From Saprospiraceae bacterium (GTDB lineage Bacteria; Bacteroidota; Bacteroidia; Chitinophagales; Saprospiraceae), in the NCBI GenBank assembly GCA_027488935.1, contig JAIYAP010000033.1, forward strand, positions 1 through 64,000: a stretch of 64,000 nucleotides of DNA, read 5' to 3'. The notes beneath the pieces were generated by a model. That model was not told the DNA's origin, did no database searches, and was given only the letters and a program-made list of their open reading frames with translations. Position numbers and translations under genes: made by a program. Within the stretch, counting starts at the first letter, position 1. Each line of letters starts with the position of its first letter. This document shows positions 35,420 to 44,169 of the stretch, one piece after another.

Positions 35420-35887
35420 TTTTGTGTGTAAGATTGATTGAGCGAATGCGATTGGTTGTTTAATTCGAGTGTAAAATTAGATTTAATCTGGTTGAAGTGG
35501 GGTAAAGTGGGCAAAATATCCTATTAAAATGTCCGTAGTAAAACAATGCTTATGAGGCTAAGTTTGAGTCCATTGTTTTTTCTCGGAAAAAGATGGAAGC
35601 GTGTTAAAAAAACTTTTCTAATTTATGGTCAACGCAAAGCGGTTATGAAAACAGATGACTTCTAATCCATTGAAAATCAATTTTTTTATCCATCCATCCT
35701 TAAAATCCATTTAAATCTGGGTATAAAATGGAATAAACCGCCAGCGCTTTACCAAAGCCCGACTTTTTTTGTTAATTTCGCGGTACATGTCATTTGTCAC
35801 GGGAAAGGCTCCCCAATTTAGGAGCCAGTTGTTTGAATCGTTCACTCGAATTCATCCTGGAGGCATTTGCTTGTTAAAAAATGGATC
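35420..35887. other. Divergent promoter region between gnd and mgtA
   Basis: 468 bp without a gene. It must contain the promoters of the minus-strand pentose phosphate operon and of mgtA. A 6-bp hairpin, GGCTCC (35807-35812) with GGAGCC (35821-35826), lies 62 nt upstream of the mgtA ATG. No M-box-type Mg riboswitch was recognised. GGAGG at 35859-35863 is too close to a TTG and too far from the ATG to decide the start. Confidence 0.6.
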
Positions 35888-38590
35888 ATGGAAACCAAAG
35901 TTAAGTCTACTACTACCAAAAGCGCAACCATTTCACCCAAAACGGGCTTTGACGAAACCGTTATCAAGCGGCTGAAAACTTTAGCAACATCCGACAATCC
36001 GGCCTGTTTGAAAATATTGGATAGCACCACTAGCGGTTTATCCGAACAGCAGGCCGCTGCACGGTTCAAAAAATACGGGCCTAACGAAATTCACCATGAA
36101 AATGCCCCCGCCTGGTACTTCCAATTATTAGCCGCCTTTTTAACACCTTTTAATGGCGTGTTATTTATTGTCGCACTGGTTTCTCTGCTTACGGATGTTT
36201 TTTTGGTCTTACCTGCGGAACGGGAATACAAAACGGTAATTTTGTTGACCTTGATGGTTTTATTGAGTTCCTTACTTCGTTTTTGGCAAGAATATAGAAG
36301 CAACAAAGCCGCAGAAGCCTTAAAAAGCATGATCAAAACCACGGCTACGGTATTGCGTAAGCCGGGAGAAAAAAAGGAAATTAGTTTTAAAAAATTAGTG
36401 CCCGGCGATCTGGTGTTGTTATCGGCCGGAGATATGATCCCAGCCGATTGTCGCATTCTACAATCAAAAGATCTATTCATTATCCAATCTTCCCTTACCG
36501 GGGAGGCAATGCCCATCGAAAAATCGGAAGCAGTGCTGGGCGATGTAAGCAAAAAGTCGAGCATAGAGTTGGATAACATTTGTTTTATGGGAACCAATGT
36601 GGAAAGTGGGGCTGCAACGGCGATGGTGGTACATACCGGCAATCAGACCTATTTGGGGTCGGTGAGCAAAGCCATTACCGGCAAACGTTCGGAAACCAGT
36701 TTTGACAAAGGGGTTACCAGCGTGAGTTGGTTGTTGATTCGTTTTATTATTGTGATGGTTCCTATGGTGTTCTTAATCAACGGTTTCACGAAAGGGAACT
36801 GGCTGGACGCTTTCCTTTTCGCGCTCACGGTCGCGGTCGGACTTACCCCGGAAATGCTGCCCATGATCGTTACGACCAACCTGGCAAAGGGCGCCTTGAA
36901 CATGAGCAAGGAGAAGGTAATTGTAAAACGCCTGAATGCGATTCAAAATATTGGGGCCATGGATGTGCTTTGTACCGACAAAACAGGCACGCTTACGATG
37001 GATAAAATTGTGCTCGAATTGCATTTGAATGTTTTTGGCGAAAACGACGATGAAGTGCTAAAATGGGCCTACCTCAATAGTTTTCACCAAACCGGCCTAA
37101 AAAACCTGCTCGATATCGCCGTCCTGGAGCATTCCGAAGTGCATGGATTGCTCGAAATTGAAGAAAAATACACCAAAGTAGACGAAATTCCCTTCGATTT
37201 CCAGCGTCGGCGCATGTCGGTTGTGCTGCAGCAACATACTGGCAAACATTTGCTGATATGTAAAGGCGCTATGGAAGAATTACTCCCGCTCTGCACGCAG
37301 GCCTTCGATCCGGGGGACGATCGGCAGTTGCACATCGAAAGCGATGCGGTAGTGCCGATGGATGCCAAAATGCATCAAACCGTGATCGATACCTGCCAAA
37401 CCTTAAACCGCGATGGATTACGGGTATTGTTGGTGGCGATCAAAGAATTTGAGAACCGGGGCACGGACTATTCAGTAGCCGATGAAAAAGATCTGATTTT
37501 TTCGGGCTTCATCGCATTTTTGGATCCGCCCAAAGCCTCCGCGAAAGCATCCATTGCTGCCATGCAAGAGTTGGGCGTTTCGATCAAAGTATTAACTGGT
37601 GATAATGAGATTGTTACCCAGAAAATATGCAAGGATGTGGGTATTGAGGTAACGCATATTTTACTGGGTGCCGAAATAGAGCAAATGAGTGATGCCGACC
37701 TCAAAGGAAAGTTGGAGGAGACCAATATTATGGCCAAAATTAATCCGCTCCAAAAATCCCGGATTGTGAAACTGCTGCAGGAACTGGGGCACACGGTTGG
37801 GTTTATGGGCGATGGCATCAACGACGCTTCCGCCTTAAAAGACGCTGATGTGGGTATTTCCGTGGATACTGCGGTGGATATTGCCAAAGAAAGCGCCGAT
37901 ATTATCCTGTTGGAAAAAGATTTGATGGTGCTGCGCAGTGGCATTATTTACGGCCGACAAACCTTCGGCAACATTATCAAATATATTAAAATGGCCGCCA
38001 GTAGTAATTTTGGCAATATGTTTAGTGTGTTGGGCGCCAGTGCGTTATTGCCATTTTTGCCCATGTTACCCATTCAAATTCTTACCCAAAACCTGCTCTA
38101 CGATATTTCCCAAATTGCCATTCCCTGGGACCAAATGGACAAGGAATTTATTGAAAAACCACAAAAATGGGCGTCCACCGGTATTACGCGGTTTATGTTG
38201 TTTATTGGCCCCATCAGTTCCATTTTTGATTATGCCACTTTTGCGGTGTTGTATTTTGTTTTTCAGGCCAATACCATCGAAAAACAATCCCTGTTTCAGA
38301 GCGGCTGGTTTGTGGAAGGTTTATTGTCTCAAACCCTGATCATTCACATGATTCGGACCCGGAAAATTCCGTTTTTTCAAAGTTGGGCCACTGCGCCGGT
38401 ATTGGCATTAACTACCCTCGTGATGGCGATTGCGGTGTATATTCCATTTTCACCCTTTGCCGCTGATTTGCGGATGCAGCCCTTGCCGTTGGCCTTTTTC
38501 CCTTGGTTAATCGGTATTTTGTTGTGCTATTGTTTGTTGACGCAATGGGTGAAGGTTTGGTTTATTGGGCGGTTTGCTTATTGGTTGTAG
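35888..38590 (+). CDS. mgtA: Mg2+-importing P-type ATPase MgtA
   Basis: P-type (P3B) ATPase that imports magnesium across the inner membrane. 900 residues from the ATG at 35888; an in-frame TTG at 35867 would add seven. The N-terminus has the domain LSEQQAAARFKKYGPNE, the actuator TGE motif is in QSSLTGEAMPIEKSE, the fourth membrane segment carries GLTPEMLPMIVTT (typical of MgtA), the phosphorylated Asp is in CTDKTGTLTMD (about 364), and the hinge motif is FMGDGINDASALKDADVGISVD. Six C-terminal membrane segments follow. A two-component system lies 66 bp downstream; whether it responds to magnesium is unknown. Confidence 0.95.
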   Translation: METKVKSTTTKSATISPKTGFDETVIKRLKTLATSDNPACLKILDSTTSGLSEQQAAARFKKYGPNEIHHENAPAWYFQLLAAFLTPFNGVLFIVALVSLLTDVFLVLPAEREYKTVILLTLMVLLSSLLRFWQEYRSNKAAEALKSMIKTTATVLRKPGEKKEISFKKLVPGDLVLLSAGDMIPADCRILQSKDLFIIQSSLTGEAMPIEKSEAVLGDVSKKSSIELDNICFMGTNVESGAATAMVVHTGNQTYLGSVSKAITGKRSETSFDKGVTSVSWLLIRFIIVMVPMVFLINGFTKGNWLDAFLFALTVAVGLTPEMLPMIVTTNLAKGALNMSKEKVIVKRLNAIQNIGAMDVLCTDKTGTLTMDKIVLELHLNVFGENDDEVLKWAYLNSFHQTGLKNLLDIAVLEHSEVHGLLEIEEKYTKVDEIPFDFQRRRMSVVLQQHTGKHLLICKGAMEELLPLCTQAFDPGDDRQLHIESDAVVPMDAKMHQTVIDTCQTLNRDGLRVLLVAIKEFENRGTDYSVADEKDLIFSGFIAFLDPPKASAKASIAAMQELGVSIKVLTGDNEIVTQKICKDVGIEVTHILLGAEIEQMSDADLKGKLEETNIMAKINPLQKSRIVKLLQELGHTVGFMGDGINDASALKDADVGISVDTAVDIAKESADIILLEKDLMVLRSGIIYGRQTFGNIIKYIKMAASSNFGNMFSVLGASALLPFLPMLPIQILTQNLLYDISQIAIPWDQMDKEFIEKPQKWASTGITRFMLFIGPISSIFDYATFAVLYFVFQANTIEKQSLFQSGWFVEGLLSQTLIIHMIRTRKIPFFQSWATAPVLALTTLVMAIAVYIPFSPFAADLRMQPLPLAFFPWLIGILLCYCLLTQWVKVWFIGRFAYWL

Positions 38591-38615
38591 GAGGGGGATT
38601 GGCGTACAAAGCCAG

Positions 38616-38636
38616 CCTCCCAAATGCCTCCAAAAT
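38616..38636 (+). promoter_or_regulatory. Candidate response-regulator binding site 1 (before the regulator gene)
   Basis: Two direct repeats, CCTCCCAAAT (38616) and CCTCCAAAAT (38627), start 11 bp apart. TATTTTT follows with its T run at 38648, 21 bp after the start of the second repeat. This is the first of four sites with the same spacing. The regulator ATG at 38657 lies so close that the transcript may be almost leaderless. Confidence 0.6.
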
Positions 38637-38656
38637 TAAAATCGTATTTTTACCAA

Positions 38657-39340
38657 ATGAAAATTTTGCTCATCGAGGATGAACTCGAACTTGCTACTTC
38701 TGTCTTGGATTTCCTAAAAAGTGAACACTACCTTGTTGAACTCGCATCGGACTTTCCGACCGCTTACGAAAAAGCAATAGTCTATGAATACGACTGCCTC
38801 ATCGTGGACATCAACTTGCCCGGCGGTGGCACAGGACTGGACGTTATTCGCGCCCTGAAAAAATTGCATCCAGAATCTGCAGTCATCATCATCAGCGCAC
38901 GAAATGGGGTTGAAGACCGTATTGTTGGGCTTGACCTCGGTGCAGATGATTACCTAACCAAACCCTTCCATCTTTCTGAACTAAACGCACGGCTTAAAGC
39001 CCTTTTACGACGGAGACATTTCGGTGGCAGTTCGGATATAGTTTTCCACGAGATTAAGATTAAACCTGCTGAGCGAAACGTTTATATTAAGGAGAACCTA
39101 CTTGACCTCACCCCAAAAGAATATGACCTTTTGCTCTATTTTTTATCAAACCAGCATCATGTACTGCGCCGCGAGAGTATCGCGGAACACCTGCTCGGCG
39201 ACGATGCCGACCAAATGGACGATTTCAATTTCATATACTCGCACATCAAAAACCTGCGTAAGAAACTGATTGACCGGGGCTGCCTTGATTATGTAAAAGC
39301 GGTGTACGGTATCGGGTACAAATTCACCGACAAAAAATGA
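38657..39340 (+). CDS. OmpR-family response regulator
   Basis: 227 residues from the ATG at 38657 (MKILLIEDELELATSVLDFL); an upstream in-frame start at 38624 would add a tail before the receiver domain and is unlikely. Receiver domain: acidic pocket E8/D9, phosphorylated Asp 51 in CLIVDINLPGG, Ser 80, Lys 102 in DDYLTKPF. The C-terminal winged helix has LLDLTPKEYDLLLYFLSNQ and YSHIKNLRKKL with AVYGIGYKF. Its stop overlaps the start of the histidine kinase gene by 4 bp. It is the natural candidate to bind the 11-bp direct repeats found four times in this locus. Confidence 0.94.
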   Translation: MKILLIEDELELATSVLDFLKSEHYLVELASDFPTAYEKAIVYEYDCLIVDINLPGGGTGLDVIRALKKLHPESAVIIISARNGVEDRIVGLDLGADDYLTKPFHLSELNARLKALLRRRHFGGSSDIVFHEIKIKPAERNVYIKENLLDLTPKEYDLLLYFLSNQHHVLRRESIAEHLLGDDADQMDDFNFIYSHIKNLRKKLIDRGCLDYVKAVYGIGYKFTDKK

Positions 39341-40608
39341 AACTGCTTCATCAAACACAACGACTTTTTTTTCGAGGTGTACTTCCGGTTTTCATCGCAG
39401 CTGGAATCGTTTCTTTTTTCACGCTGCGTTGGGTTTTCGACCATGAAACGGATGAAAAACTATTGGGGGTGCAGGCCGAAATCGAATCCTATGTGCGGAT
39501 AAATGATACGCTTCCTACCTTTTTTCAGACTGTTTTCGACCGATGGTATGCCGAACCGATGCCTACCGGCTCTATGACGAATCTGAAAGCTTATACTTTT
39601 TCGGACACGATGCTTTTCAACAAGTTTGAGAACGAAATAGAACCCTTCCGGCAATTGCGTTTCCCGGTAAAGATGCGCGGGCAGATATGGATGGTGTCTG
39701 CACTTACCAGTACAGTCGAACACCATGACCTTGTATTGATATTGGCCGTGCTACTCGTAACCATGTTCGGACTGTTGCTTCTGGTGATGCTCTGGGTCAA
39801 CCGGATTGTGTCGCGACAGGTTTGGCAGCCGTTTTTTGAAACCTTGGAAAAAATGCGTCGCTTCCGACTGGCCGACCACGCCCTCCTAACACTCCCCCCT
39901 TCATCGGTCGAGGAAATTCAGGAACTCAATACAACACTTGAAAATCTTGCCTATCAGGTGCGACAGGATTATCAAACGGTCAAAAAATTTACTGAAAATG
40001 CCAGTCACGAACTGCAAACCCCGCTTGCTATCATTCAAGGCAAAGTGGAAATATTATTACAAAACGATACCCTTAGCGAAACGCAAGCTCAGCAAATAAA
40101 CATCATCGGTCAAAGCACCCGACGCATGGTGCGACTCAATCAATCCCTTTTACTGCTCTCAAAAATCGAGAACAATCAGTTTTTGGAACGAAAGCCAGTT
40201 GCATTGAAACCACTTCTGGAAAAAAGATTGGTATGGCTAGAAGATTTCATCGCTGAAAAAAAACTGGAATTAGAGACCATTTTAGTAGAAATATCGCTCG
40301 AAATCAACCCTTTTTTGGCGGAAACACTCATGACCAATTTGCTCACAAATGCGGTAAAGCACAATATCCAAGGCGGTTTTCTGCGCGTGATCTTGAATGA
40401 AAACTACCTGATCGTAGAAAACTCAGCCGCCCTGCCAGAAGCCTCGGTGAAAGATTTGACTGCCCGTTTTGCGCGCGGAAATCCGCATTCGGAGGGTGTG
40501 GGACTGGGTTTAGCAATGGTCGTGGAAATTTGCGAACAACAAGGCTTCGGGCTTGAAATATCGTTTGAACAGGGCATTTGGCGCGTGCAGCTGCGTTTTA
40601 GGAAGTAG
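39337..40608 (+). CDS. Sensor histidine kinase
   Basis: 423 residues. Two membrane segments (about 12-32 and 132-154) enclose a periplasmic sensor region of about 100 residues without a recognised domain. The phosphorylated His is H224 in NASHELQTPLAIIQGK, the N-box is LMTNLLTNAVKHN, and the G2 box is GVGLGLAMVVEI. The usual DxGxG box is weak here (LIVENSAALPE), as in several Bacteroidota kinases. It overlaps the response regulator by 4 bp. The signal is unknown; the neighbouring receptor suggests something transported or sensed at the outer membrane. Confidence 0.93.
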   Translation: MKLLHQTQRLFFRGVLPVFIAAGIVSFFTLRWVFDHETDEKLLGVQAEIESYVRINDTLPTFFQTVFDRWYAEPMPTGSMTNLKAYTFSDTMLFNKFENEIEPFRQLRFPVKMRGQIWMVSALTSTVEHHDLVLILAVLLVTMFGLLLLVMLWVNRIVSRQVWQPFFETLEKMRRFRLADHALLTLPPSSVEEIQELNTTLENLAYQVRQDYQTVKKFTENASHELQTPLAIIQGKVEILLQNDTLSETQAQQINIIGQSTRRMVRLNQSLLLLSKIENNQFLERKPVALKPLLEKRLVWLEDFIAEKKLELETILVEISLEINPFLAETLMTNLLTNAVKHNIQGGFLRVILNENYLIVENSAALPEASVKDLTARFARGNPHSEGVGLGLAMVVEICEQQGFGLEISFEQGIWRVQLRFRK

Positions 40609-40623
40609 TCTTCTGAAACCCAT

Positions 40624-40644
40624 CCTCCCAATTCCCTCCAAAAT
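40624..40644 (+). promoter_or_regulatory. Candidate response-regulator binding site 2 (before the receptor gene)
   Basis: CCTCCCAATT (40624) and CCTCCAAAAT (40635), 11 bp apart. TTTG of a -7-like box (GACTTTTG) begins at 40656, 21 bp after the second repeat starts. The receptor ATG is at 40678. Confidence 0.7.
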
Positions 40645-40677
40645 CAACCCAGACTTTTGCCTCAAAATGAATAAAGA

Positions 40678-43110
40678 ATGACAATACAAAAATTGCTTGT
40701 CCTGCTACTTTTCGCTGCTTTTTGCACACCGCAAATCATCGCCCAAAGCCCATCGGGTAATGGCATCACCCTTTCCGGTAAGGTACTAGACGCACAGACA
40801 AAAGCCCCACTTGCCTTTTTAAGCATCGTTTTGAAAACCGAAAAAGACAGCGCATTCGTCGCCGGGTCCTTGACCGACGAGGCGGGTTCTTTCACATTGT
40901 CAGGTTTGAAAAAAGGGAATTATCGTATTGAAGCCTCTTATGTGGGTTACCAAATCCTGCGACAACGGATCGTAATAGGTGAATTAAGCACATTTTTGGA
41001 TGTGGGTGTATTGCAAATGCAGGAAGACGCAAAGGCTTTGGACGAAGTAATGGTCTCCGCAAAAGCCGACGAGGTTTCCAGTAAAATGGATAAGAAAACC
41101 TATGCTGTCAGCGACAACATCAGCCAATCGGGTGGCTCGGTTTTGCAGGCGATGACCAATTTGCCGGGTGTTACCATCAGTGAAGAGGGCAAAGTCCAGT
41201 TGCGGGGCAGCGACAAAATTGTCGTCCTGATGGACGGTAAACAAACCGCTCTTACGGGGTATGGATCGCAAAAGGGCCTAGACAATCTGCCAGCCTCTGC
41301 GATCGAACGCATCGAAATTATCAACAACCCTTCCGCTAAATACGATGCCAATGCCAGTGCGGGCATCATCAACATCATTTTTAAAAAACAGGAACAACAT
41401 GGTTTCAATGGCAAAGTCGGCATGATGGCAGGCGCGGGCGCACTCTGGGAAAAGCGGGAAAACCTGCCGACCATCCGACCGCAGTTTCAGGCTACGCCTA
41501 AACTAAATCCGTCTATTTCAATAAATTATCGGAAAAAAGAAACCAATCTTTATTTTCAAGGCGACTGGCTTTATGCACCTACTTTGAACAAAAATGAGTT
41601 TTCGACGCGCACGTATGAGGATGGCACTGTTATTTTTCAGCAGGTAAAACGAAACCGAAGAACAGACTATGCCACCGCTAAAATAGGACTAGATCATACC
41701 TTTAATGACCGCAATACCCTGACTGTTTCGGGGCTGTTTAACCGCGAAAAAATCCTGGACAACGGAGACGAACCTTTCTTTTTGGATAGCCCAGAAGCGC
41801 AAAACCGCTACCGTCTTTGGCAATTTTTGGAAGATGAAGTGAAATACACTGCGTTTGGCACGACGGTTTTTACGCATAAATTTCGCCAACCGGGCCACAA
41901 CGTAATCTTTACAGGAAACTACTCTTTTCACCGGGAAGATGAGCAGTATTTTTTCACCAATACACTGCCTGATTTTATCGGGAAAGACGCTTTTAAACTG
42001 CTTTCTGACGAACACGTCTGGGATTTTAATGTAGATTACTCGAAACCGCTCCGACATGGCCGTGTCGAGGCGGGATTCAAGGGTCGATTCCGCTCCATTC
42101 CGGTAAACATGCAGTTCTTTCCAGGACAAAATTCTCCGATTGACGTCGGTGCAGGTGGTTGGGCGAATTATGATGAAAAAATCCCGGCGCTGTATTCAAA
42201 TTATGTTTTTGAAAATGAAAAATTTGAAATGGAGGGTGGCTTGCGGGTTGAATATGTGGAGGTAGACTACCAAGTGAATCCCGATCATAATACCTATAAA
42301 AGCGACGGTTATCGCTATTTCCAACCTTTCCCCAACCTGCGTGCAGCGTACAAACTCAATGACCGCAACAAAGTTTCCCTCTTTTTCAACCGCCGGGTCG
42401 ACCGTCCGAACGAAGTGGATATCCGCATTTTTCCAAAATACGACGAGCCGGAACTCATAAAAGTGGGCAATCCGGCGCTACAGCCGCAGTTTACCATGTC
42501 CGCCGAATTGGGTTTCAAAAGTGCATTCAAGCAGGGCAGTTTGTTTACGGCGATTTACCATCGCATCATTGATGGCACGATTACACGTATTGCTACACAG
42601 GCACCAGGTAGTGTGTTGCTCTACAATGTTTTTCAAAATGCCGGACGTAGTTGGAATACGGGCGCTGAGGTTGTTTGGCAGCAAAAAATAAATAGTTGGT
42701 TTTCTTTGACGGCCAACGCAAATATTTATCAGAACACATTCGCTGCATTTACAGTGGTCAATCGATATCCCGTTCCGACGACTTATTCGGCTGAAAAACA
42801 GCAACTTGTATCTGGAAATTTCAAATTGATCGCTTCTGTGAAAATGGCAAAAAATTGGGAGGCGCAAATTTCCAGTATATGGCTTGCACCGGACCTAATC
42901 CCGCAAGGGCGTATCGGCAGTCGGTACGCGCTGGATGCAGGGCTAAAAAAAATCGTCCAGAAAGGCCGGGGGGAATTGGTGTTCAATGCGACCGATTTGC
43001 TGAATACGATGCAAATCAGAAAAAGCATACGCGGGTCAGATTTTAAATTGGAAAGCACGGATTATTATGAGACGCAGGTAGTCCGGATGGGGTATCATTG
43101 GAAGTTTTAA
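40678..43110 (+). CDS. TonB-dependent receptor family outer-membrane protein
   Basis: 810 residues. Signal peptide (MTIQKLLVLLLFAAFCTPQIIAQ), then a carboxypeptidase-regulatory-like domain (ITLSGKVLDAQTKAPLAFLSIVLK, about 30-110), a plug domain (VLQAMTNLPGVTISEEGKVQLRGSDKIVVLMDGK, about 155-188; IERIEIINNPSAKYDANASAGIINIIFKK), and a long outer-membrane beta-barrel ending in Phe (YETQVVRMGYHWKF). This is the receptor type without a classical TonB box but with the barrel-3 family. Substrate unknown. It lies 69 bp after the kinase and is preceded by its own regulator-like site. Confidence 0.9.
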   Translation: MTIQKLLVLLLFAAFCTPQIIAQSPSGNGITLSGKVLDAQTKAPLAFLSIVLKTEKDSAFVAGSLTDEAGSFTLSGLKKGNYRIEASYVGYQILRQRIVIGELSTFLDVGVLQMQEDAKALDEVMVSAKADEVSSKMDKKTYAVSDNISQSGGSVLQAMTNLPGVTISEEGKVQLRGSDKIVVLMDGKQTALTGYGSQKGLDNLPASAIERIEIINNPSAKYDANASAGIINIIFKKQEQHGFNGKVGMMAGAGALWEKRENLPTIRPQFQATPKLNPSISINYRKKETNLYFQGDWLYAPTLNKNEFSTRTYEDGTVIFQQVKRNRRTDYATAKIGLDHTFNDRNTLTVSGLFNREKILDNGDEPFFLDSPEAQNRYRLWQFLEDEVKYTAFGTTVFTHKFRQPGHNVIFTGNYSFHREDEQYFFTNTLPDFIGKDAFKLLSDEHVWDFNVDYSKPLRHGRVEAGFKGRFRSIPVNMQFFPGQNSPIDVGAGGWANYDEKIPALYSNYVFENEKFEMEGGLRVEYVEVDYQVNPDHNTYKSDGYRYFQPFPNLRAAYKLNDRNKVSLFFNRRVDRPNEVDIRIFPKYDEPELIKVGNPALQPQFTMSAELGFKSAFKQGSLFTAIYHRIIDGTITRIATQAPGSVLLYNVFQNAGRSWNTGAEVVWQQKINSWFSLTANANIYQNTFAAFTVVNRYPVPTTYSAEKQQLVSGNFKLIASVKMAKNWEAQISSIWLAPDLIPQGRIGSRYALDAGLKKIVQKGRGELVFNATDLLNTMQIRKSIRGSDFKLESTDYYETQVVRMGYHWKF

Positions 43111-43131
43111 CCTCCAAAGTTTCTCCAAAAT
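43111..43131 (+). promoter_or_regulatory. Candidate response-regulator binding site 3 (before the PepSY gene)
   Basis: CCTCCAAAGT (43111) and TCTCCAAAAT (43122), 11 bp apart, starting right after the receptor stop codon. TTTG of AACCTTTG begins at 43143, 21 bp after the second repeat starts; AACCTTTG matches TAnnTTTG at 7 of 8 positions (first base A instead of T). The ATG is at 43180. Confidence 0.7.
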
Positions 43132-43179
43132 CGAAACAAACCTTTGACACATCTTTCATTCAAACATAAATTCTTGATC

Positions 43180-43578
43180 ATGAAAAAAATCATGCTATTA
43201 AGCCTGTTTGCGCTCGTTTCTTGCGCGACGGCATTTTCCGCAAACCCGCCGCAAGCGGTGCTGGCAGCGTTCCAGCAAAAATTCCCCAACGCACAAGATG
43301 TGGATTGGTCGAAGGAAAAAAACGGAGAATGGGAAGCTGAGTTTGAACTGACAGGCAGTCAGGAGATGTCCGCCAATTTTTCTTCCGACGGCCGCTGGCT
43401 CGAAACGGAAACCGAAATCGCATTTTCGGAGCTGCCCGCGCCCATCCGGACCGCCTTACAAGGCAAAAAAGTGAAAGAAGTCGCCCGCATAGAAAAAGCC
43501 GACGGCTCAACCGTGTACGAAGCCGAAGTCAAGCGGAAAGATTTGATTTTCGATGCTTCCGGCAAAATGTTGAATTGA
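43180..43578 (+). CDS. PepSY-like periplasmic protein
   Basis: 132 residues from the ATG at 43180. Signal peptide MKKIMLLSLFALVSCATAFSA; the Cys at residue 15 gives only a weak lipobox. The rest holds two PepSY-like repeats: VLAAFQQKFPNAQDVDWSKEKNGEWEAEFEL and PAPIRTALQGKKVKEVARIEKADGSTVYEAEV. Such small periplasmic proteins of Bacteroidota are often coregulated with two-component systems. It has its own candidate regulator site and a strong terminator after it. The function is unknown. Confidence 0.82.
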   Translation: MKKIMLLSLFALVSCATAFSANPPQAVLAAFQQKFPNAQDVDWSKEKNGEWEAEFELTGSQEMSANFSSDGRWLETETEIAFSELPAPIRTALQGKKVKEVARIEKADGSTVYEAEVKRKDLIFDASGKMLN

Positions 43579-43658
43579 AAAGACCCTATTTGTACCATGA
43601 AAATGAATGCAATAAAGGTTTGATGAATCAATGGAAGGAAGAGACAATCCGATAAAAA

Positions 43659-43704
43659 AGCTGGACTTCTCATAGGTTTTGAACTAAGAGAAGTCCGGCT
43701 TTTT
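43659..43704 (+). terminator. Terminator after the PepSY gene
   Basis: AGCTGGACTTCTC (43659-43671) pairs with GAGAAGTCCGGCT (43688-43700) with one T-G wobble, then TTTT follows. It closes the receptor-PepSY transcription unit. Confidence 0.85.
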
Positions 43705-43734
43705 CATTGCTGGTTTGTAGTTGTCACGTCCCTT

Positions 43735-43755
43735 TCTTCCCCATCCCTCCAAACA
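43735..43755 (+). promoter_or_regulatory. Candidate response-regulator binding site 4 (before the receptor fragment)
   Basis: TCTTCCCCAT (43735) and CCTCCAAACA (43746), 11 bp apart: a weaker first half and a good second half. CTTG at 43767 stands where TTTG stands at sites 2 and 3, again 21 bp after the second repeat starts. It leads directly into the receptor remnant. Confidence 0.5.
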
Positions 43756-43772
43756 TCGGCGTAAGGCTTGCT

Positions 43773-43892
43773 ACCGATTTGCTGAATACCATGCAAATCA
43801 GAAAAAGCATCCGCGGGTCAGATTTTAAATTGGAAAGCACGGATTATTATGAGACGCAGGTAGTCCGGATGGGGTATCATTGGAAGTTTTAA
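43773..43892 (+). pseudogene. 3' remnant of a duplicated TonB-dependent receptor gene
   Basis: These 120 bases match the end of the receptor gene (42991-43110) at 118 positions, including the stop codon. The two differences, at 43790 (G to C) and 43811 (A to C), are both synonymous in the receptor frame. It encodes TDLLNTMQIRKSIRGSDFKL to the terminal MGYHWKF, the last barrel strands only. No signal peptide or plug precedes it; an in-frame TTG at 43707 could start a 61-residue peptide but this is doubtful. A diverged copy of the locus's regulatory site lies 18 bp upstream. Confidence 0.85.
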
Positions 43893-43902
43893 GTTTTCCA
43901 AT

Positions 43903-44169
43903 TTAGGCAACCTCTCCTAACCGCGCTTTTACCATCGCCACCATGAATGCACGTATATCTGCCGAATGTTGCACCAAGTTATAAGGTAAACGAATGATAA
44001 ATTGGTGCCTTCCTTTTTCGTCTACCCACTCGTCTTCATCTTGATCGTTTTCGTCTTGGGTACACAAAAAGGTAATACCTACATTAGGTAAATGAGGGAA
44101 TTGTGCAGCAACGTATTGTGTATCTACCTTATCTGCAATTGCTTGTTCTACAATTTTTACAACTTTCAC
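43903..44169 (-). CDS. Small protein of unknown function
   Basis: 88 residues from a GTG start at 44169. It contains KVVKIVEQAIADKVDTQYVA, an acidic stretch (DENDQDEDEWVDEKG) and a helical C-terminus. No signal peptide or known domain was recognised. It lies 41 bp after the DUF1016 gene on the same strand, so the two may be cotranscribed, but no pairing with that family is known to me. Confidence 0.5.
   Translation of the reverse strand: MKVVKIVEQAIADKVDTQYVAAQFPHLPNVGITFLCTQDENDQDEDEWVDEKGRHQFIIRLPYNLVQHSADIRAFMVAMVKARLGEVA

Follow-up and report, generated by a model that had tools for sequence, protein, structure and literature searches.

A locus in a 64,000-nucleotide window (contig JAIYAP010000033.1) from a Saprospiraceae bacterium encodes, in succession, an OmpR/PhoB-type response regulator (RR), a sensor histidine kinase of the PorY family, a TonB-type receptor and a PepSY-like protein. 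The RR-kinase operon, the receptor gene and the PepSY-like gene are each preceded by two 11-bp direct repeats with a T-rich box at a fixed distance, and are predicted to form a regulon of three units. The three elements are very probably operators of the adjacent RR, which, once phosphorylated by the PorY-family kinase, would activate its own operon, the receptor gene and the PepSY gene; we hold this reading with good confidence on the basis of sequence comparisons. For Bacteroidota, with promoters unlike those of E. coli, little is known about activator sites. The system combines a predicted regulon with a regulator whose DNA code is readable and with an explicit geometry, in which the regulator would stand in place of the -33 box.

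The first-pass annotation of the window described four such elements, at 38616, 40624, 43111 and 43735. All four strings were present at these coordinates, with exact spacings of 11 bp between the repeats and 21 bp from the start of the second repeat to the box. A profile, seeded with a half-site picked by eye, was learned from the upstream regions of homologous genes elsewhere, with the window excluded, and was used to score both strands of the window. The elements at 40624 (27.8 bits), 43111 (27.0 bits) and 38616 (25.2 bits) took ranks 1, 2 and 3. The next-best position scored 12.7 bits. In a leave-one-out test these three copies each ranked 4 of 127,930 positions, behind the training sites of that test. 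Three of the four elements are real and far above chance, while the claimed fourth copy, at 43735, scored 3.8 bits (rank 34) and was not supported as an operator.

All features of the locus are on the forward strand. Operator 1 (38616-38637, with half-sites at 38616-38626 and 38627-38637) precedes the RR-kinase operon. Its T-rich box, TTTT at 38648-38651, lies at the fixed operator distance, is an imperfect match to TTTG and is followed by the start codon 5 nt on. Operator 2 (40624-40645) precedes the receptor gene and has a TTTG box at 40656-40659, with GACT rather than TAnn in front of it. Operator 3 (43111-43132) precedes the PepSY-like gene and has a TTTG box at 43143-43146, here with AACC instead of TAnn. 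Each box is presumed to belong to a -7 element.

The two-repeat pattern CTCCNAADNNNCTCCAAAA had 3 matches in the 6,277,322-base genome, all in this locus, and the reversed pattern had 0. The family consensus plus TTTG, with ≤1 mismatch, returned the same three matches only. Hundreds of unlinked copies in the genome would, by the first-pass annotation, have refuted its reading; three good copies were found, all at this locus, to which they seem to be private. Exactly two mismatches gave 21 further genome matches, with profile scores of ≤18.4 bits except for two at 21.8 and 19.2. The sites over 18 bits among these, L266 (21.8), L271 (19.2) and L318 (18.4), are all without CTCC-type half-sites and are weak candidates for further targets in the host genome. 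L266 directly precedes a sizeable open reading frame (ORF) and L271 does not.

Relatives of the locus were then used to examine the spacing. RR homologues (E ≤1e-55) were identified in 82/298 genomes of the order. A Chitinophaga type strain (L014) is among the carriers of a homologue. Eighty RR regions were taken down the ranked match list, leaving aside rows with in-frame stops or contig ends and the weak tail, and ten best-match loci were added. Upstream regions were used only if the match started no later than residue 8, which generated 95 RR, 28 PepSY, 66 kinase and 20 receptor upstreams. In a count free of any motif model, near-perfect direct repeats before RR homologues peaked at offset 11 (25/95, against a shuffled mean of 1.45), and the other offsets from 9 to 23 reached at most 7/95. 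Offset-11 repeats were also found before 7/28 PepSY homologues (shuffled 0.35), compared with 2/66 (shuffled 0.85) for the kinase-gene upstreams, which are mostly coding and served as a control. The 11-bp spacing noted in the window is conserved across the related loci, and places the half-sites about one helical turn apart, as in a direct-repeat operator of an OmpR/PhoB regulon.

The consensus of the family profile is YTYCARAWTY-N-YTYCARAATY-N10-TTTG, and a weak TA (columns 27-28) precedes TTTG by four bases. With the derived profile, 85/121 training upstreams contained a site above 6 bits. In held-out sequences 196/304 exceeded 12 bits, compared with 12 on the reverse strand and 0 after shuffling. 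Above 15 bits the full profile identified held-out sites in 60/94 RR, 22/27 PepSY and 11/19 receptor upstreams, and in 0/65 kinase upstreams. When the 22 repeat bases were modelled alone, TTTG stood at one exact offset in 24/47 sites and at any other offset in at most 2. In a genome of the same genus (G270) the element occupies the corresponding position before the RR gene (23.5 bits), and a receptor-PepSY pair ∼10 kb from the RR has its own copy (26.4 bits). Because this spacing is preserved in relatives throughout the phylum, the elements are likely to constitute a small, self-contained switch for these genes. The self-contained regulon envisaged in the first-pass annotation draws support from this conserved spacing and from the three good genome copies, all at the locus.

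Presence of the element follows presence of the RR. With ≤1 mismatch, 43/50 RR-positive genomes had matches (80 in total; 5 for the reversed pattern), compared with 5/20 RR-negative genomes (9 in total; p 1.9e-6); the latter all belong to the window's own family and are RR-negative only at E 1e-55. Fifty-five of the 80 matches, in 34 genomes, had a listed RR homologue no more than 15 kb away, and 26/30 pattern-match loci of RR-positive genomes scored above 18 bits by profile.

Covariation between the recognition helix and the half-sites points to the locus RR as the predicted binder of the repeats. Among proteins of solved structure the RR is closest to DrrD and BasR/PmrA, BasR being second-best. 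Among representatives at <75% identity of RRs that have a site, those with S195 or Q196 had C at profile column 2 in 9/11 cases, compared with 0/35 of the others (p 5e-8), and C at column 13 in 9/11 versus 1/35 (p 4.7e-7). This grouping was chosen after the alignment had been inspected and was therefore retested on loci outside the training set, which gave 4/4 versus 1/16 for column 2 (p 1e-3) and 3/4 versus 0/16 for column 13 (p 3.5e-3). S195 is present in the window RR, whose half-sites carry C at the corresponding column. In our own alignment residue 195 matches Val197 of PhoB, which is said to touch thymines in both half-sites (PMC3973317).

The kinase is linked to the RR well beyond the window. 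It scored 401.5 bits with the PorY family model NF052314 (cutoff 350), and all 22 kinases scanned, that of the window plus 21 of the 67 encoded in related loci, matched this family at E ≤1e-60. When 118 genomes of the phylum were searched with the PorY family, 27 were positive; 34 matches were listed, 30 of them as loci. An RR homologue (>35% identity) was encoded in the flanks of all 30 kinase loci and is a likely partner for PorY-family kinases; at one locus, L307 (38%), its recognition helix is clearly different. An operator above 12 bits was present in 23/30 loci. The window itself and loci that overlap the training set account for four of the 30 (L285, L290, L298 and L301); without these four, 20/26 reach 12 bits.

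The position of the repeats suggests how the RR might act. Bacteroidota promoters are described as carrying TAnnTTTG at -7 and TTTG near -33 (PMC7366714). Taking the TTTG in the element as the -7 box would place the repeats at about -38 to -17, across both the -33 region and the spacer; the family profile has no TTTG there. Of the TAnnTTTG motif of the Bacteroidota sigma-ABfr promoter, the TTTG part stands at a fixed distance, and the TA shows in the family profile but at only one of the three window sites. The placement relative to TTTG fits an activator standing in for the -33 contact. Since the repeats sit where the -33 box and spacer would be, activation is likely, and an activator replacing -33 would be the simplest reading. 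In the proposed mechanism the adjacent PorY-family kinase would phosphorylate the RR (38657-39340), and an RR dimer in head-to-tail arrangement would then bind the pair of 11-bp direct repeats, between about -38 and -17. The promoter would keep its -7 element, mainly the TTTG part, with the repeats replacing the -33 box, and the bound RR would help RNA polymerase to start transcription. The RR would thereby activate its own operon as well as the outer-membrane receptor and PepSY-like genes.

The message of the RR operon is probably leaderless. The RR start codon lay 3-9 nt past the box in 33/61 loci (5 nt in the window), and ≤9 nt past it in 12/20 loci outside the training set. PepSY starts were 10-95 nt past the box, and 18-46 nt in 19/23 cases. 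In Bacteroides thetaiotaomicron ∼3.7% of 5' untranslated regions are under 10 nt (PMC7366714). With the RR start codon so near the box, leaderless RR messages look like a feature of the system.

Several observations weigh against this reading. Sites above 6 bits were missing from 36/121 training upstreams, and sites above 12 bits from 7/30 PorY-family loci. The kinase-gene control had a repeat peak of its own at offset 12 (8/66, shuffled 1.15). Two of the three window sites, those of the receptor and PepSY genes, lack the TA of TAnnTTTG, and the RR box is TTTT. In an open scan of RR residues 152, 179 and 196 were strongest; 152 and 179 covary with the half-sites at least as strongly as 196, and shared descent therefore contributes to the helix signal. 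In RR-positive genomes 25/80 matches were not near a listed RR homologue. Twenty regions with such matches were inspected; some matches precede PepSY, TolC, PAP2 or receptor genes, and others no sensible gene. Finally, the nine matches of RR-negative genomes include two at 28.7 and 22.7 bits and one further at 18.0. The two strong sites (L275 and L278) are both in genome G057, which has no RR homologue at E 1e-55 and may have a more distant RR.

The strongest of the other explanations keeps the same operator and the same RR and reverses the outcome: the RR, bound over -38 to -17, would block RNA polymerase, and phosphorylation would lift or set the block. Overlap with the core promoter is the usual position of a repressor, and such a protein would also be suited by a site that spans -33 and the spacer, which counts against activation. 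Repression would require neither an exact spacing from the -7 element, such as the single offset shared by about half of the modelled sites, nor repeats that replace the -33 box. The missing -33 box is itself weak evidence against repression, because a -33 box is not identifiable in Flavobacterium johnsoniae promoters either (PMC7366714). We consider repression unlikely.

Alternatively, the repeats could be operators of some other regulator. The matches away from listed RR homologues and the two good sites in RR-negative genomes would be expected if this were so. Linkage of the element to the RR, its autoregulatory position before the RR gene and the helix covariation all argue for the RR instead, and another regulator seems quite improbable. 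That the four copies arose by chance or as duplicated sequence is scarcely credible, given three exact matches in 6.28 Mb, all at the locus with none reversed, conservation in relatives, and a blastn search of the fragment region (43601-43920) against the locus (38501-43600) that returned just a 120-bp receptor duplicate and 9-10 bp matches; as far as can be told, this explanation does hold for the copy at 43735, which precedes the duplicated receptor fragment.

The rejected copy occupies 43735-43770. With the 22-bp part of the window-excluded profile it ranked 182, and in the leave-one-out test 132, compared with rank 4 for the other three. It lies beyond a strong hairpin and immediately precedes a duplicate of the receptor 3' end (43773-43892), which has 98.3% identity over 120 bp with 42991-43110 and no start of its own.

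The genes of the locus were assigned as follows. The RR gene (38657-39340) encodes a receiver domain (Response_reg, 80.2 bits) and a winged-helix domain (Trans_reg_C, 63.4 bits), both above the Pfam cutoff, which bears out the earlier assignment of an OmpR-type regulator to the locus. A longer RR ORF from 38624 was rejected; its start would fall inside the operator, and the conserved MKILL start at 38657 was preferred. The PorY-family kinase gene follows at 39337-40608. The outer-membrane β-barrel receptor of the TonB type (40678-43110) was recognized by its CarbopepD_reg_2, Plug and OMP_b-brl_3 domain matches. The PepSY-like protein (43180-43578) is the sole PF11396 match found in the genome, and its gene is followed by a hairpin and T run, a probable terminator (43650-43712; -31.9 kcal/mol, z -8.1). 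In B. thetaiotaomicron the PepSY-like genes BT0922-BT0923 are listed as iron-responsive (PMC10434189). Directly upstream of the locus, 35867-38590 encodes a magnesium-translocating P-type ATPase (TIGR01524, 1261 bits). No operator precedes this gene, because window sites other than the three score ≤12.7 bits.

The RR was compared with characterized regulators of its class. None of the 25 NCBIfam regulator models listed reached its cutoff with the window RR, which scored 142.6 bits with PmrA (cutoff 330), likewise an OmpR/PhoB-type RR, 138.0 bits with PhoB (cutoff 296.2) and 125.9 bits with QseB, also called PreA (cutoff 345). The Pho box consists of 11-bp direct repeats standing in for the upstream promoter element, and lies farther from -10, whereas the repeats here end ∼6 bp before the -7 element. 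PmrA recognizes a pair of head-to-tail half-sites separated by 5 bp, or 11 bp start to start (PMC3973317), the same offset as here. The half-site YTYCARAATY differs from the CTTAAT/CCTAAG of PmrA/QseB, and the promoter here would be of the Bacteroidota type. PreA activates its own operon and the adjacent ygiW operon (PMC2653508). By its description HaeS/HaeR of Porphyromonas gingivalis is comparable, with an RR that bound its own and haem-uptake promoters in gel shifts; the available part of the text does not contain the terms direct repeat, footprint or consensus (PMC3764172). The regulatory logic appears to be that of PhoB and PmrA, and the motif and regulon are apparently undescribed: among the titles and abstract openings listed by literature searches, in which coverage of subscription journals was poor, no Bacteroidota regulator with this motif or regulon was described.

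The PorY family is named after a regulator of type IX secretion, and the kinases examined here have an OmpR-type RR homologue beside them. The family name may be misleading for these kinases. PorX and PorY of P. gingivalis, whose kinase is of the same NCBIfam family, are described as unlinked and not autoregulated, and their mutants differ (PMC8050853); the partner here is the adjacent OmpR-type RR. We conjecture that P. gingivalis PorY derives from the present system as an orphaned kinase. It is possible, and we suggest it tentatively, that the phylum has a widespread system of PorY-family kinase and OmpR-type RR with a promoter class of its own, in which an RR dimer covers -33 and the spacer and the RR message is leaderless, and that P. 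gingivalis PorY lost its partner. If true, this loss could explain the differing porX and porY mutants.

The genes behind the element were identified in 1.41 Mb of related loci, where 187 sites scored above 18 bits (reversed control 0). These regions overlap slightly and include training loci, and a few of the 187 sites were possibly counted twice. The next gene encoded an RR at 55 sites, a PepSY protein at 34, a receptor at 26 and another protein at 68; 4 sites had none. Domain scans covered 58 of the 68 other targets, the ten left out being mostly short, and identified 13 OEP proteins of the TolC type, 11 PAP2, 4 trypsin-PDZ (DegP-like), 3 sulfatase and 2 BOF proteins. YgiW, whose operon is activated by PreA, is a BOF protein as well. 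The target set looks like an envelope-stress regulon, and the system may serve envelope homeostasis. Two sites in relatives precede putative regulators, one a short protein resembling a lone DNA-binding domain (L135:8591-8908), which we take to be the 1/58 scanned targets that matched Trans_reg_C, and the other an AraC-type regulator (L243:8192-9079). Both are possible second-tier regulators.

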